A stretch of 21,555 nt of DNA from a virus: IMG/VR virus record IMGVR_UViG_3300050821_004494, positions 1 through 21,555 of that record; one strand, written 5' to 3'. A program made the position numbers and the translations under genes. Under the pieces are notes generated by a model that was not told the origin of the DNA, did no database searches, and saw only the letters and a list, made by a program, of their open reading frames with translations. Positions 2,543 through 10,883 of this stretch are shown here, piece after piece (position 1 is the stretch's first letter; each line of letters begins with the position of its first letter).

Positions 2543-4012
2543 ATGACTATGTCTATTCCACTTCCGGTAGGTTCTTATGTTGCTGCTGATCCTACTGCTT
2601 CGTGTAAAAGATTGGTCAATATCTTTAGCGAACCTGTTCCTGCAGATTCTGTTCTTCAGGAATTGAAGGGCGGCAATCCTTACCAGGAATCAGCTCCCTC
2701 TTTCCTTAGACGTTGGGCTGGAATTAAACCTTTTGCTAGTGACGGTACTAGTAATCGAACTCGCGGTCTATGGACTATGCAAGGCGTACTGTACGCCGTT
2801 ATTGGACCCACCCTCTACAGTATTTCCAAATCAGGAACTGCAGTAGAACTAGGTACCGGTATACCGGGCAATTCTTTTGTGAGAATGACGGACAATACTG
2901 CTTGCTTAGTAATTCTAGTTCCTAATAGCACCAATTGCTATACTTATTGTCCTAATAGTGCAGGAATACATTTTCAGCAATTAACAGCCTCTCTATTTAC
3001 TACTTATGGAGCTATTGATTGTCATTTTGTGGATAGCTTTATAGTATTCTTGGCTACTAACGGCAGATTATTCTACAATGATGATGGACAAATAGTATCA
3101 GGACAAGAACAAATAACTTTTACTACTAATGCTACTTTCCCTAGAGAGTTTGGCACAGATCTGTTCGTAGGTATGGGGACAGATCATAGGGTTCTTACTC
3201 TTTTCGGTCTATTGTCCAGTGAAAGCTATGTTAACGTAGGTAATCCGGTAGGTACTCCCTTTTCTACAGCTCCTCAGAGCTTCGTAGAACTAGGATGCCA
3301 TCCGGATGCACCTTACACTATAGCATTGCAGGATCAAGCACTGTTCTGGGTAGCTAATGATAAGACGGTTCGTAGAAAGAATGGACAGACTGCTCAAAGA
3401 GTGTCTAACAGTGGTATTGAGGCTATTTTAGAGCATGCGAATCTTCAAGGTTCTTATGCTCTTACGCCCAGTATAGCTGGACATGCTTTGTGGGTACTAG
3501 TAATTCCCAAATCATACAGAACTGTAGTCTACGATTGCTTGACTCAAGAATGGTTTGAGATTGATTCTTACGGTCTTGGTTATTGGCGCGCTCTTTGTTA
3601 TAATAATGCCTATAGTAGGCAATTTGTGGGAGATACTGAGGGACACGGCATAGGGTATTTAGATACTAATGTATTCACCGAGTATGGTGCTACTATGGTG
3701 AGTTCTTTCACTACTCAGCCTATCTATAAAGATCACAATAGGGTGTCTCATCGTAGATTAGAACTTATTATATCTACGGGACAAGGTGGATTTACAGGTG
3801 CTAATCTGTCTCTATATGTATCAGATGATTCCGCCAATACTTTTAGAGGATTCCCTGATAGAAATTTAGGTCCATTAGGAAGTTTTTTCATTCGCGTAAT
3901 TTGGTTTAATTTAGGACAAAGTAGAAATCGAGTATACAGATTTTCTACTAGTGATCCTACACCTACTTTCACTGTTCAAATAACCGCAGATCTAGAATTA
4001 AATAAATGGTAA
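2543..4012 (+). CDS. P22 gp10-like tail accessory / packaged-DNA stabilisation protein
   Basis: A 489-residue protein. Its N-terminal layout follows P22 gp10: a VNIF-x-EP segment (residues 26-31), then RRWAGIKPF (56-64, matching gp10 RSFPGI), then RTRGLW (72-77) and GVLYAVIGPTLYSIS (81-95), the first blades of a beta-propeller-like fold. Length is close to gp10 (about 470). In P22 this protein sits beneath the portal, plugs the connector after packaging and forms part of the tail hub; the same role is inferred here. The ATG follows the tailspike stop directly and a second ATG lies two codons later; no strong Shine-Dalgarno sequence is visible, so translation is probably coupled to the upstream gene. 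The stop is one base before the fibre gene. Assignment is by motif order, not by a database search. Confidence 0.75.
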   Translation: MTMSIPLPVGSYVAADPTASCKRLVNIFSEPVPADSVLQELKGGNPYQESAPSFLRRWAGIKPFASDGTSNRTRGLWTMQGVLYAVIGPTLYSISKSGTAVELGTGIPGNSFVRMTDNTACLVILVPNSTNCYTYCPNSAGIHFQQLTASLFTTYGAIDCHFVDSFIVFLATNGRLFYNDDGQIVSGQEQITFTTNATFPREFGTDLFVGMGTDHRVLTLFGLLSSESYVNVGNPVGTPFSTAPQSFVELGCHPDAPYTIALQDQALFWVANDKTVRRKNGQTAQRVSNSGIEAILEHANLQGSYALTPSIAGHALWVLVIPKSYRTVVYDCLTQEWFEIDSYGLGYWRALCYNNAYSRQFVGDTEGHGIGYLDTNVFTEYGATMVSSFTTQPIYKDHNRVSHRRLELIISTGQGGFTGANLSLYVSDDSANTFRGFPDRNLGPLGSFFIRVIWFNLGQSRNRVYRFSTSDPTPTFTVQITADLELNKW

Positions 4013-4013
4013 T

Positions 4014-5030
4014 ATGACTCAGCTTCCAGTACGAAAAGGTATTTCTGCCCCTGTAGTTGTAAATATTCCTGAAGAATGGAGTAGAGAATGGTTTAGGGAA
4101 TTTATTACTAATTTTCTGGTAGGTGCCGATATACGTAATGTACAGGCTCAGGGTATTACTATTAGTGGTAATGTAAGTGGAAATAATACTGTAGCTGGAA
4201 GCACTACTGTAAGTATTGGACTTACTCCTATAGCAAACGATACAGTCCTAGGAAATATTAGTGGAACTACTGCTGCTCCAGTGGCACTTACTGAAGCTCA
4301 ATTTACAGCTCTTATAAATATTTTTACTGCTACTACTTCAGGAGCTGTGCCTCCTAGTGGAGGCGGAACTTCCAATTATCTTAGAGCAGACGGTACTTTT
4401 GATACTCCTACCTCGGCAGGTCCAATAGCTAATAATACAGTTTTGGGAAATGCCAGTGGCGGGACAGCAAATCCAGTTGCTTTAACTCAGACGCAATTAA
4501 CTACTTTAATAAATCTTTTTACTTCTTCTCTGGCAGGAGCTGTCCCTGCTAGTGGCGGCGGCACCGCAAATTATTTAAGAGCTGACGGAACTTGGTCTAC
4601 TCCTCCTGGGGGAAGTTCTTCTCCTGCTGGAGCTAATACCGATGTGCAATTTAATAATAGCGGTGCTTTTGGTGGGTCAGCTAATTTAACCTGGAATGGA
4701 AGTACCCTAGGAGTTACAGGAACCGTAGCCTCTACTACTTTCAATTCTACTTCTGATCCTTCTACTAAGAAGGATATGATACAGATAAAAGATTCCGATA
4801 AAATAGTAGATTCCATTGCTGGGTATAGATTCAAGTGGCTAGAATCTGATAAACCGTCCATGGGTGTAAAGTCCACGGAAATTAAGGAAGTAGCTCCGGA
4901 ATTAGTATCTAAATTCCAAGAACACGATGTAGTGAATTATAATGGATTAGTAGCTGTTCTAATAGAAGAAGTGAAGTCCCTGCGTTCTAGGATTGCAGAT
5001 CTGGAGATTAAAGTATGCCAAGCGGCATAG
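4014..5030 (+). CDS. Tail fibre with C-terminal S74 self-cleaving intramolecular chaperone
   Basis: A 338-residue protein. Residues 1-70 hold a short N-terminal attachment region (EEWSREWFREFITNF) followed by GITISGNVSGNNT. Residues 72-132 and 137-197 form two tandem repeats (IAN[DN]TVLGN ... NYLRADGT). Next come VQFNNSGAFGGSAN and a beta stretch common in phage fibres. The C-terminus is a peptidase S74 chaperone domain: TSDPSTKKDM places Ser247 five residues before Lys252, the same spacing as the Ser911/Lys916 dyad of endosialidase chaperones. YRFKWLE, a VAPELV motif, VNYNGLVAVLIEEVK and a terminal coiled coil (SLRSRIADLEIKV) follow. In this family the domain trimerises the fibre and is then released by autocleavage, probably before Ser247. 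The end overlaps the next gene by 16 bases. Confidence 0.9.
   Translation: MTQLPVRKGISAPVVVNIPEEWSREWFREFITNFLVGADIRNVQAQGITISGNVSGNNTVAGSTTVSIGLTPIANDTVLGNISGTTAAPVALTEAQFTALINIFTATTSGAVPPSGGGTSNYLRADGTFDTPTSAGPIANNTVLGNASGGTANPVALTQTQLTTLINLFTSSLAGAVPASGGGTANYLRADGTWSTPPGGSSSPAGANTDVQFNNSGAFGGSANLTWNGSTLGVTGTVASTTFNSTSDPSTKKDMIQIKDSDKIVDSIAGYRFKWLESDKPSMGVKSTEIKEVAPELVSKFQEHDVVNYNGLVAVLIEEVKSLRSRIADLEIKVCQAA
4227..4604 (+). repeat. Two-copy 65-codon tandem repeat in the tail fibre gene
   Basis: Copies lie at 4227-4409 and 4422-4604, offset 195 bases. Each encodes PIAN[DN]TVLGN-x-SG, PVALT-x-x-Q, GAVP-x-SGGGT and NYLRADGT. The protein copies are much closer than the DNA copies, which suggests an old duplication kept for shaft structure. 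Confidence 0.9.
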
Positions 5031-7039: not shown

Positions 7040-7933
7040 ATGGCTTCTCTGTACTCGAACGTCGCAGTAGCTCCTCCAAATAATAATGCTCAACCAGTAA
7101 CTGACTGGGGCAGCCTATTCGGCGCGGGTGCGGGAGCCTTAGCTAATTACTTTGGCACTCAATCGGCCACAAATGCTCTTACTGGCGGTGAACAGAACGC
7201 CATAAATACTCAAACGGGTATACAAGGTCAACTTGGAGGCATTTATACAGGGCAAAGAGGCCTAGGAAATGGTGCAGATTCTGCCCTATTTTCCAGCCTA
7301 GGGCTGGGGGGAACTCCGGATTATTCGGCCTTTATGAATTCTCCTGGGTTTCAAGGTAGTTTAGGACTAGGTAATCAAGCTATAACTAGGGCAGCTTCTG
7401 CTAACGGAAGTTTATATACTCCTAATATGTTAAATCAATTAGGACAATATGATACTACTTATGCCTCCCAGAATTATAATAATTACGTAGGCAAGCTTCT
7501 TAATGCTGCCGGCCTTGGCGCTCAAGGCAATTCTGGTCTAAGTTCGGGATTGATACAGACTGGTGGAAATATCAGTCAACTTCAGCAGAATCAAGGCAAT
7601 GCCAATGCTGGCGGAGCAGCCAATACTGCCGGTATAGCTTCTAATCTTCTATCTAGAGTTCCTTGGGGAAGTGTAGGAAGCGGTATATCTAACTACTTCA
7701 ATGGCAATTCCGGAAGTAATTCCGGAGGCATAGACACTACTAATTCTGGTATATTGAATGGTTATACCAATTACAGTCCTAATACTAGCGGATATGATTC
7801 TACTACAGGTAATTATGGCAGTTTAGATAATAGTTCTATTTTAGGTAATACCTCTTTTAGTAATTATTCTCTTAATAATGGCTATGATTCATCTACCGGA
7901 TCTTACGGAGACGGTTCTACTTCGGGTTTTTAG
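7040..7933 (+). CDS. DNA-ejection (internal virion) protein, short zero-frame product
   Basis: A 297-residue protein. Residues 16-26 carry AQPVTDWGSLF, shared with the next ejection protein. Residues about 90-160 hold the pattern DYSAFMNSPGFQ..LGLGNQAITRAASANG..LNQLGQY..YASQNYNNYVGKLL, found in many podovirus DNA-transfer proteins comparable in position to P22 gp7. The tail (about 215-297) is low complexity, almost only G, S, N, Y, T and D, with two copies of GYDS[TS]TG[NS]YG. Such proteins are packaged in the capsid and ejected before the DNA to form a conduit across the envelope. The stop TAG at 7931-7933 immediately follows a slippery heptamer, so a fraction of ribosomes should continue into the -1 frame. 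The function is inferred from pattern and position. Confidence 0.8.
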   Translation: MASLYSNVAVAPPNNNAQPVTDWGSLFGAGAGALANYFGTQSATNALTGGEQNAINTQTGIQGQLGGIYTGQRGLGNGADSALFSSLGLGGTPDYSAFMNSPGFQGSLGLGNQAITRAASANGSLYTPNMLNQLGQYDTTYASQNYNNYVGKLLNAAGLGAQGNSGLSSGLIQTGGNISQLQQNQGNANAGGAANTAGIASNLLSRVPWGSVGSGISNYFNGNSGSNSGGIDTTNSGILNGYTNYSPNTSGYDSTTGNYGSLDNSSILGNTSFSNYSLNNGYDSSTGSYGDGSTSGF

Positions 7934-9006
7934 GGGCGCCATCGACCTCGGGGTCCACTAACCTCGGTGGCGCTAACAGTAGTGGAAGCAGCAGTAATAT
8001 CGGATCTGATATAGCTCTTGGAGCCGGTGCTTTAGGCATTGCTGGTGGTTTAGCTTCTGGCAGACCTACTGGATACGCTTCGGCCGGTCTACAAGGTACT
8101 AAGCTACTTTCAGGTAATTCCAATACTAGTGGATTGTTTGGAAACAATGCTAGTGCTATAAATAGTGCGGCTGGATATGGATCTAATGCTTTAGGCGTAT
8201 ATAGCGGCATTAAGCAGGGCGGAGCAGCGGGGTATTCTAATGCCGCCGTAAACGCAGCTCAAATGGGAGCTAGAGCCGGAGCCTTTGGCGGAGCTTCTGG
8301 CACAATAGGCGCAGCAGCTGGCTATGCAGCTATACCTTTAGCACTCTATAATTTTGCTTCGAATTATGAATCAGGTAAAACTGGCTCGGATGCTCTGAAT
8401 GGAGCAGAAGCCGGTGCGGCAATTGGATCAGTTATTCCTGTTATTGGTACTGCTATTGGCGCGGTAATAGGCGGAGCAGTAGGTGCTATATCTTCGGCCT
8501 TTGGTCCTGGAGCTAAAGATCCAGAAACTAGCGGAGTACAGAATCTAATTAATGCCACTAGCCAAAATGGTAATAATTCACAGATAGCTTCTAGTGTTCA
8601 AAATCCATATTTAGGTTTGGCAGGATTATTCGATGAAAGATCAAGTACTTTGCCTATGTACCAGCAATACGGCCGTATGGGAGAAAGTAAGTTTGCTAAC
8701 GGTATGATAAATACTATTAATCAAGCCTACCAGAAAGGTACAATTAGTAAAACCTCGACTCCAGATCAAGTATATCAAAGTGTAGTAGCTCCATGGATAA
8801 ACTCTATGGGCAAAGGGTACAGTAATGTAGGATCTACTTATACTGCTACCACTCAAGGTCTAGTTCAGGATATGGTGAATCAGTATATGAATGGTTCTTA
8901 TAAGACAGCTTGGAAATCCATTGGCGGACAACAGATTGCGTCCAATGCTCCTGAGTACGGTTCATCCGATCAAGCCACTACTGATGGCACTATTATTAAA
9001 GGTTAA
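7040..9006 (+). CDS. DNA-ejection protein, long form made by programmed -1 frameshift (655 residues)
   Basis: After Phe297 a -1 slip at 7924-7930 continues the protein from the TTA codon at 7930 to the TAA at 9004-9006, adding 358 residues. The -1 frame keeps the same Gly/Ala/Ser/Asn-rich composition with no break, beginning LGAPSTSGSTN. It has no ATG until about 8262, and the TTG at 8134 has no clear ribosome binding site, so independent translation is unlikely. At about 8392-8511 lies a glycine zipper (GAEAGAAIGSVIPVIGTAIG followed by AVIGGAVG), typical of membrane-inserting ejection proteins. The C-terminal part (MYQQYGRMGESKFANGMINT, VAPWINSMG, LVQDMVNQYMNG) looks globular and helical. 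Only the long form would contain the membrane segment. A real frameshift mutation or base-call error in the T run is the main alternative. Confidence 0.75.
7924..7986 (+). promoter_or_regulatory. Programmed -1 frameshift signal: slippery heptamer, stop codon and H-type pseudoknot
   Basis: The heptamer G GGT TTT (7924-7930) obeys the X XXY YYZ rule in the zero frame and is followed directly by TAG. After a 5-base spacer (7931-7935), 7936-7945 (GCGCCATCGA) pairs with 7964-7973 (TCGGTGGCGC) in a 10-bp stem with one G-U. Inside the loop, 7954-7960 (TCCACTA) is perfectly complementary to 7980-7986 (TAGTGGA), giving a 7-bp second stem and an H-type pseudoknot. The loops are 8, 3 and 6 bases. The 6-base third loop is short for crossing a 10-bp stem, so the lower pairs may open. 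Confidence 0.85.
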
Positions 9007-9011
9007 TATTT

Positions 9012-10883
9012 ATGGCTGATGTATCTGCACAACCTATTCCCGACTGGGGCAGCCTTCTTTCTAGCTACGGCCAAGGACAGGCTAATATAGGTTTGACTAA
9101 TTCTCAAGCTAATTTAGCGCAAGCTCAGGCTACTCAATCTATTCCAGCGCAGGCAGGACTCGCTAGGGCGCAAACAGGCTTAGCCGGTGCTCAAACTAAT
9201 TTAGTAGGTGCTCAAGCTCAAAAAGCTAATCTTGAAGTAAAGATGATCCAGAAGGCAATGGCGGATGCCGAAGCTACTCAAAATTCTAACCAGCAGGGTT
9301 CTGATAGTGATATCGATCCTACACAAGTGGGCGTATCTTCTTATCTCAATAATTCTTGGTTTGTAGATCCTAAGGGACCTGCCAGTCTTCAACCTTATCT
9401 TCAAAATCCAGCTCTTGCTGCAGCTTTTCCACAGGTTGTTCAAAGAGCGGATGAGATGAGAAAGATAGCTGTGGAATCTGCTACTGCTAAGAATCAAAAT
9501 GAAGCTAATGATGTATATCAGACAGCTAGCACTCTTATGCAGAATGACGGCGGAGCACCACTTCAGAGCCTCCTTAAACTTAAAGATGGCTCCAAATTGA
9601 ATCTTATCGGTAAAGCTATTAATGGCCGTACTGACATGACTCAAGCTGAAAAAGATCAAGCTGCTGAGGCTGCTATAGAATCGGCTGCTAAGACTTCTTT
9701 CCGATTCACTGGTCAGAAGCCTACGGTTGTGGGTGATCAGGAACGATCGGAGCAGACTGGACAGCCTGTTGCCGGTGCCCCCGGAGTACGTCCCAGTCCC
9801 GGAGAACAAATCTCTTCAGCTCAATGGGCGCGGACTCCTCAAACTGCTACCGTTAATGGTAGAGATACTACTACTAGACCTATAGATTTGGGAATCAATG
9901 GTGCCCAGGATTTGCTCAAGGACAAAAGAGGTATTAAATTCTCTAGTCCTCCACCATCTGATCAGCAAGCTCCTATTGCAGGAGGCGGTAATCCACAAAC
10001 TGCCAGTCCCCAGCAACCGACTCCTGGAGGTGGCCAAGGAACAGCTCCTACTGGAAAGCAGCCTCCTATATCCAAGGATGAGCAACAGACGCAAGCTCTC
10101 AGACAAGCCGGTCTTAACGATCCGCAGATTGATTTTGTAAAAAGCCGTCAACCCGGATTTCCCCAGATTCCTAGTAATGAAAAGCCTAATCCTGATGATC
10201 TTAAGGCTAGGGATATTTATAGAGCGCAAGCTCAGAAACTATCTGATGCTACCAATACTGAATTTGCTAGGGCTCAAGATACAGTTACCCATATGACTCA
10301 GATTAAGAATCTCCTGAATACTCCCGGACTTAAATTAGGCCCAGGATCACAAGAGTATTCTCAATTACAGACTATATTTAATCAATGGACTGGCTCGTCA
10401 GCAGGGCAAGCTGGTGCATATCAAGTTCTTACTAAAGTTCTAAATGCTACTGAAATGAATGATCTCCTTCAGCAGTTCCATAGTGAGGGGGCTCAGGTAC
10501 GGCTTGGTGCTTATGAATCTCGACTGATTATGGAAAAGCTTACTGCTAATCCAAATTTAACTAAAGAAGCTATTAATCAGATGCTTAAATGGCAACAGTC
10601 AGATGCTCAGTATACTCTTGATAAATCCAGAACTGCTGCAGCCACTATTGCCGCTGGTAAATCGGTAGCCAATTTCAATACTGAATATGGAACTAAATTT
10701 CCTAAACAAGATATTGTGGACACTTCTGTAAGTCAATTAAATGGTGGTAAGTCTTTGAATTTCGATGGTGCTAAAGGTAAAAGCTACCAGCACGCGGAAG
10801 TATCCGCTAGTGCTGCTAAGCTAGGAATGCCTGTAACTATGCTAGAAGATCAACTCCGCAAAGCTGGAGCTAATATACAATAG
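9012..10883 (+). CDS. Ejection / internal virion protein with Ala-Gln helical N-terminus
   Basis: A 623-residue protein with AAAGG 9 bases before its ATG. It starts with SAQPIPDWGSLL (residues 5-16), the same tag as in the preceding ejection protein. Residues about 20-80 are built of A/Q/L/N-rich near-repeats (LAQAQATQ, ARAQTGLAGAQTNLVGAQAQ) that should form one long helix or coiled coil. The middle is helical (about 120-240). A Pro/Gln/Gly-rich disordered linker spans about 310-360, and a helical C-terminal domain (about 395-620) ends in MLEDQLRKAGANIQ. No lytic transglycosylase motif is visible. Position between two other large virion-type proteins, at the place of P22 gp20/gp16, supports a role as capsid-internal protein released with the DNA. 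No family name can be given from sequence alone. Confidence 0.65.
   Translation: MADVSAQPIPDWGSLLSSYGQGQANIGLTNSQANLAQAQATQSIPAQAGLARAQTGLAGAQTNLVGAQAQKANLEVKMIQKAMADAEATQNSNQQGSDSDIDPTQVGVSSYLNNSWFVDPKGPASLQPYLQNPALAAAFPQVVQRADEMRKIAVESATAKNQNEANDVYQTASTLMQNDGGAPLQSLLKLKDGSKLNLIGKAINGRTDMTQAEKDQAAEAAIESAAKTSFRFTGQKPTVVGDQERSEQTGQPVAGAPGVRPSPGEQISSAQWARTPQTATVNGRDTTTRPIDLGINGAQDLLKDKRGIKFSSPPPSDQQAPIAGGGNPQTASPQQPTPGGGQGTAPTGKQPPISKDEQQTQALRQAGLNDPQIDFVKSRQPGFPQIPSNEKPNPDDLKARDIYRAQAQKLSDATNTEFARAQDTVTHMTQIKNLLNTPGLKLGPGSQEYSQLQTIFNQWTGSSAGQAGAYQVLTKVLNATEMNDLLQQFHSEGAQVRLGAYESRLIMEKLTANPNLTKEAINQMLKWQQSDAQYTLDKSRTAAATIAAGKSVANFNTEYGTKFPKQDIVDTSVSQLNGGKSLNFDGAKGKSYQHAEVSASAAKLGMPVTMLEDQLRKAGANIQ

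Follow-up and report, generated by a model that had tools for sequence, protein, structure and literature searches.

The locus of interest raises a simple question: how is a gene read when its frame closes at a stop codon precisely where a long, startless frame, displaced by one base, takes over? It lies in the window, a 21,555-nucleotide stretch of viral DNA (IMG/VR record IMGVR_UViG_3300050821_004494). Here, the zero frame encodes a protein of 297 residues, and the -1 frame, open across positions 7888–9006, holds a further 358 codons; joined, the two give a product of 297 + 358 = 655 residues. A sequence-only reading of this DNA had put forward both lengths, which our frame reading bears out, and had attributed them to a frameshift in a DNA-ejection protein gene. 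Judged from its sequence, the gene is very probably translated by programmed -1 ribosomal frameshifting, a mechanism that the window's relatives strongly support.

The family assignment was upheld by a profile search, in which the N-terminal half (N-half) matched phrog_598 (DNA ejection; E 6.3e-13, residues 33–241). The same profile was matched by the relatives L024, L026 and L114, while the L029 N-half gave no match in the phrog_598 search of relatives. The gene lies 3' of a stabilization protein and 5' of two large ORFs, which is the P22-like order. These ORFs (623 and 719 aa, starting at 9012 and 10886) gave no profile match and are assigned by position only, standing where P22 has its other ejection proteins (gp20/gp16). 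In isolates such as Sphingopyxis phage VSN-002 and phage DSL-LC05, the annotation likewise places a stabilization protein first, then a DNA transfer protein and then translocase-type proteins; their DNA transfer proteins are linked to the window family via phage CBW1004C-Prop1. Profile matches identify an endolysin, a holin and a tail fibre among the other neighbours. Positions 4014–5030 encode a tail-fibre-like protein whose C-terminal 110 residues match fibre/baseplate families, with an end of the intramolecular-chaperone type. The AlphaFold model of the N-half is poor (mean pLDDT 39.7).

Coordinates of the features discussed in the text (positions in the window)
Feature	Position	Strand	Basis or remark
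Head-closure/stabilization protein (phrog_578), upstream context	2543–4012	+	profile match, E 7.8e-67
Zero-frame ORF, 297-residue short form, DNA-ejection protein (phrog_598)	7040–7933	+	ATG 7040, TAG stop
Slippery heptamer G_GGT_TTT	7924–7930	+	in phase (X XXY YYZ) with the zero frame
-1 frame C-half, 358 codons	7930–9006	+	read directly; kept in relatives
Zero-frame stop TAG	7931–7933	+	read directly
Spacer, 5 nt	7931–7935	+	read directly; equal length in 9/9 junctions
Stem 1, 5' arm GCGCCATCGA	7936–7945	+	read directly, covariation
Stem 2, 5' arm in loop, TCCACTA	7954–7960	+	read directly, shuffle tests
Stem 1, 3' arm TCGGTGGCGC	7964–7973	+	read directly, covariation
Stem 2, 3' arm TAGTGGA	7980–7986	+	perfect 7-bp pairing with 7954–7960
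Most hydrophobic stretch of the long form, IPVIGTAIGAVIGGAVGAI, glycine-zipper-like	8434–8490	+	composition; weak sub-cut-off matches
Two large downstream ORFs, 623 + 719 aa	9012–13045	+	placed by order only

The zero-frame ORF ends with TCG GGT TTT TAG. On re-reading, the heptamer, the TAG, the five-base spacer, the 10-bp stem and the 7-bp loop pairing described in the sequence-only reading all proved correct to the base. Stem 1 consists of 10 pairs, one of them U-G, and an additional G-U pair is possible at 7935/7974. Among the 42,960 positions on both strands of the window, this one ranks first by pseudoknot score; the score (43) compares with 29 for the next best of the window's 96 XXXYYYZ heptamers, and is matched by 0 of 150 dinucleotide shuffles. 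Taken alone, the 7-bp stem 2 is matched in 1% of shuffles of the loop and 3' flank. The locus thus combines an in-phase heptamer, a stimulator within 5–8 nt downstream and a conserved, startless, overlapping -1 ORF. An Rfam search gave no match, and the exact pattern GGGTTTTTAGGGGCGCC did not occur in viral contigs. The pattern TCGGGTTTTTAGGNGC is present in 51 viral stretches; where at least 60 codons lie on either side, it falls in the ejection gene of five contigs and in the unrelated L075, whose -1 frame has been open for 121 codons before the pattern is reached.

Relatives were collected by tblastn-confirmed IMG/VR scans with the C-terminal half (C-half) and the N-half, and all are metagenome contigs. 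They display three states of the gene: (i) the C-domain is fused in one frame to an N-terminal part (L001, L002, L004, L091, L094–L098, L101 and others), (ii) the C-domain is encoded apart, by a gene that starts with an ATG of its own (L102/L103, L114, L117/L135, L010, L013), and (iii) as in the window, the zero-frame ORF ends where a long, startless -1 ORF begins. The third state is found in L009/L017 and L016 (which share a junction), L026, L029/L030, L012/L018, L015, L024, L019 and L129; including the window, there are nine distinct junctions, with N-halves down to 29% identical. Further N-domain relatives (L021–L023, L025, L027, L028, L083–L086) have no attached C-domain. Plain fused or split relatives lacking a conserved heptamer or pairing had been named beforehand as evidence against frameshifting. 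Fused and split genes do exist; yet they represent separate evolutionary states, the split ones show no heptamer in the overlap of the N and C genes, and the position of the shift site, the spacer and stem 1 are conserved throughout the third state. The split loci probably use translational coupling in place of frameshifting.

Two loci stand somewhat apart. Firstly, L020 (3965–5281) has an N-half closely related to that of the window (67% over the matched part) and a different, in-frame C-terminal part with no frameshift, a sign that close relatives swap the C-terminal module. Secondly, in L003/L008 (1–180, where contig IMGVR_UViG_3300010396_000351 begins) the frame breaks at this same domain boundary the other way, in the +1 (or -2) sense: the zero frame reads ...YFGDGYPY* with TAA at 106–108, the C-half follows in the +1 frame, and a hairpin (CCGCTGG/CCAGCGG) lies directly past the stop. 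An error at the contig end or a different kind of frameshift would account for this break. In ten annotated phage records that contain N-domain relatives, the annotation shows only the short, stand-alone gene. Neither the window DNA nor the C-halves matched anything in the phage records searched, and scans of species genomes with the N- and C-alignments confirmed nothing; accordingly, these scans revealed neither a host nor a cultured phage that has the arrangement.

The C-half is conserved at 60–67% identity among relatives. Both halves diverge chiefly at third positions in their stated frames (third-position divergence 50–62%), and this pattern of change shows purifying selection acting on the C-half in the -1 frame, which indicates that the long form is used. 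Within the first 20 codons past the junction, 18 of 27 four-fold sites are kept, versus 124 of 329 elsewhere (three comparisons summed). Could the C-half instead be a separate gene, with its own start or with reinitiation near the TAG? The split relatives offer a precedent: their C-domain gene has an ATG adjoining the N-gene stop (L102/L103, 3515–3536; L114, 2752–2770; L117/L135, from 4786 in L135). In the window, however, the earliest ATG, GTG or TTG of the -1 frame is TTG 8134, which has no clear Shine-Dalgarno sequence and lies 68 codons in, past residues that are conserved in relatives; the earlier claim that this frame lacks a credible start is thereby sustained. In L087, L090, L093 and L099 the first ATG comes only 80 to 305 codons in. 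A separate start would also leave the conserved shift sites and stem 1 unexplained, making it very improbable.

Comparison of the nine junctions shows how closely the signal has been kept. In every one, the shift site lies directly before the zero-frame TAG or one codon upstream, followed by a spacer of exactly 5 nt and a 10-bp stem. Eight of the nine carry an XXXYYYZ heptamer: G_GGT_TTT in four (the window, L016/L017, L026, L029/L030), and A_AAC_CCY in L015, L018, L019 and L024 (A_AAC_CCC in three, A_AAC_CCT in one). The site of the ninth, L129, is GAATTTC, with a T_TTC tetramer. This junction (L129, 4913–4970) reads TCG AAT TTC TAG, an imperfect heptamer with a 5-nt spacer; its stem 1 forms 10 of 10 pairs and stands outside the eight-junction covariation set.

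Across those eight junctions, stem 1 has standard pairs in 78 of 80 cells, with double changes in seven of its ten pairs. Slid versions of the stem score far below it, and permuting the 3' arms among the sequences gives P 0.00025. None of 500 shuffles reaches any of five covariation measures for stem 1, and none of 3000 reaches the summed score of stem 2 (106.5 versus 64.5 in shuffles), although these shuffle tests are inflated by the relatedness of the sequences, against which the third-position divergence given above is to be set. Covariation of both stems in homologous phages had been proposed as a check on the signal. For stem 1 it came out strongly, alongside the conserved position of the shift site and the conserved spacer; for stem 2 the support was weaker, the pairing being found in seven of the eight junctions scored, at only 5–6 bp in several, and absent from L019. 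The third base of a Ser codon in the 3' arm of stem 2 (AGT, AGC, TCG) changes together with the loop. On these comparisons stem 2 is likely, if short of proof for the whole family.

The N-domain tree groups the window, which has the G-type site, with L015 and L018, which have the A type (support 100/98). It follows that the whole heptamer was exchanged while the stem and spacing stayed, and this exchange argues against two explanations that rely on the run of T residues. The first holds that a base of the T run has been lost, through faulty sequencing or assembly or by a recent one-base deletion, and that the true gene is a plain 655-codon fusion. One added T would indeed join the frames, and L001, L002 and L004 are fused in just this manner. 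However, the same break occurs at the same place in independent contigs (L009/L017, L016, L026, L029, L030), and AAACCCY sites, which lack a T run, show it too (L015, L018, L019, L024); covariation of stem 1 would be left unexplained. We consider such an error highly improbable. The second explanation is transcriptional slippage, generating mRNAs in both frames from the T5 run at the junction. Five T residues are short for slippage by bacterial polymerase; the relatives have AAACCCC, AAACCCT or AATTTC at this point, and the downstream spacer and stem suit a ribosomal mechanism. Slippage of this sort has next to no probability.

Under programmed -1 ribosomal frameshifting, most ribosomes would read TCG GGT TTT and terminate at TAG, releasing the 297-residue DNA-ejection protein. 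The pseudoknot, 5 nt past G_GGU_UUU, would cause a fraction of ribosomes to slip back by one base, with the Gly and Phe tRNAs re-pairing on GGG and UUU. Shifted ribosomes would then read the 358 further codons to give the 655-residue form (...GSTSGF-LGAPSTSG...; junction peptide GSTSGFLGAPSTSG). When a strong pseudoknot is present, shifting occurs in E. coli at 61 of 64 heptamers, and neither GGGTTTT nor AAACCCY is among the three failures; U_UU.C, the L129 motif, ranks second among tetramers (PMC4066793). Both GGGTTTT and AAACCCY are absent from the list of E. coli motifs that shift above 0.10% without stimulators (PMC4066793), making a minority long form the natural guess. Hence, shifting in the host would probably involve a minority of ribosomes.

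What might the long form do? Since the C-domain is separate or fused in other phages, we read the long form as an ejection protein with an extra module on some subunits. No family is assigned to the C-half, and its matches to glycine-zipper and bacteriocin families are weak and below cut-off. Its AlphaFold model is all-helical and partly of low confidence (confident only in about residues 200–340), and a fold search with the model gave no significant match. Its composition is what suggests a possible membrane role. We infer that virions contain both forms and that, through the C-half, some subunits of the DNA-injection conduit gain a part that is membrane-active or serves as a scaffold. More specifically, frameshifting may set the virion ratio of the two forms, with a few long subunits—carrying the glycine-zipper, membrane-active C-domain—initiating, anchoring or plugging a trans-envelope DNA conduit of mainly short subunits; we advance this model tentatively, at slightly less than even probability. 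Alternatively, the signal may shift ribosomes while a fixed virion ratio is not what matters, one form being a by-product or the site being regulatory. Fused-only and short-only versions in relatives and isolates imply that a mixture is not needed in every phage. Set against this, the selection on the C-half noted above points to use of the long form, and the stop that nine lineages retain at the shift site suggests that the short form is kept too. A by-product or regulatory role is therefore unlikely, if less so than the explanations discussed earlier.

If frameshifting does set the ratio, it would amount to stoichiometric control of the DNA-injection channel by recoding, and would provide a natural way to probe subunit stoichiometry in the podovirus injection conduit, a difficult subject to study. 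The lineage would also have moved between fused, split and frameshifted forms of one protein, and its slippery site has been swapped wholesale (GGGTTTT versus AAACCCC) above a conserved stem. Annotation pipelines will split such a locus into two genes, the second startless. Well-known cases of -1 frameshifting in phages involve tail chaperones, capsid proteins and tail proteins; here it would concern proteins that carry DNA across the envelope. Frameshifting goes unmentioned in a review of ejection proteins (PMC8954989), and a search of the open-access literature for frameshifting in ejection proteins found nothing relevant, in agreement with the sequence-only reading, which knew of no established case. 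As far as that search reaches, the mechanism is known and the ejection-protein gene is new for it.

Several known systems bear comparison. A mechanistic parallel in bacteria is that of the IS3-family pseudoknots, which likewise combine an X_XXY_YYZ or Y_YYZ site, a short spacer and a pseudoknot stimulator (PMC4066793); gene, slippery sequences and pseudoknot all differ, and the likeness is functional, with no membership claimed. The window's protein is set beside P22 gp7 by its phrog_598 profile match and gene order alone; in the annotated isolates examined, the corresponding genes are short, stand-alone ORFs with no frameshift, unlike the window.

Phage frameshifting has been reviewed for lambda G/GT, T7/T3 gene 10, the A2 head and tail genes and structural genes of Listeria PSA, A118 and A500 (PMC5009743), and the kuravirus major capsid gene is a further -1 case (PMC9965538). 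T7/T3 gene 10 (10A/10B) and the kuravirus gene are podovirus structural genes in which, as proposed here, a -1 shift close to the stop codon produces a minor form with a C-terminal extension (PMC5009743, PMC9965538). Those are capsid genes, whereas ours encodes an ejection protein; the kuravirus site is GGGAAAG, and profile searches found no homology to either group of capsid proteins. In lambda, too, a single gene (G/GT) gives a short form and, at low level, one extended by a -1 shift, and the shift is conserved across divergent phages though the sequences differ, as here (PMC5009743). G/GT belongs to long-tailed phages, lies beside the tape measure gene and places neither product in the virion, whereas the window has an ejection gene in P22-like order. 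A G/GT chaperone identity, which would call for a major tail protein gene on one side and a tape measure gene on the other, was rejected, the neighbours being a head-closure protein, endolysin, holin and tail fibre. An Ig-like frameshift extension was likewise rejected for the C-half, which gave no Ig-like domain match in a Pfam search and is predicted all-helical. In Lactobacillus A2 and Listeria PSA, A118 and A500, whose extensions are Ig-like, frameshifting gives a portion of the copies of a virion protein a C-terminal domain, as proposed for the window; there as here, other phages carry such extensions in frame (PMC5009743).
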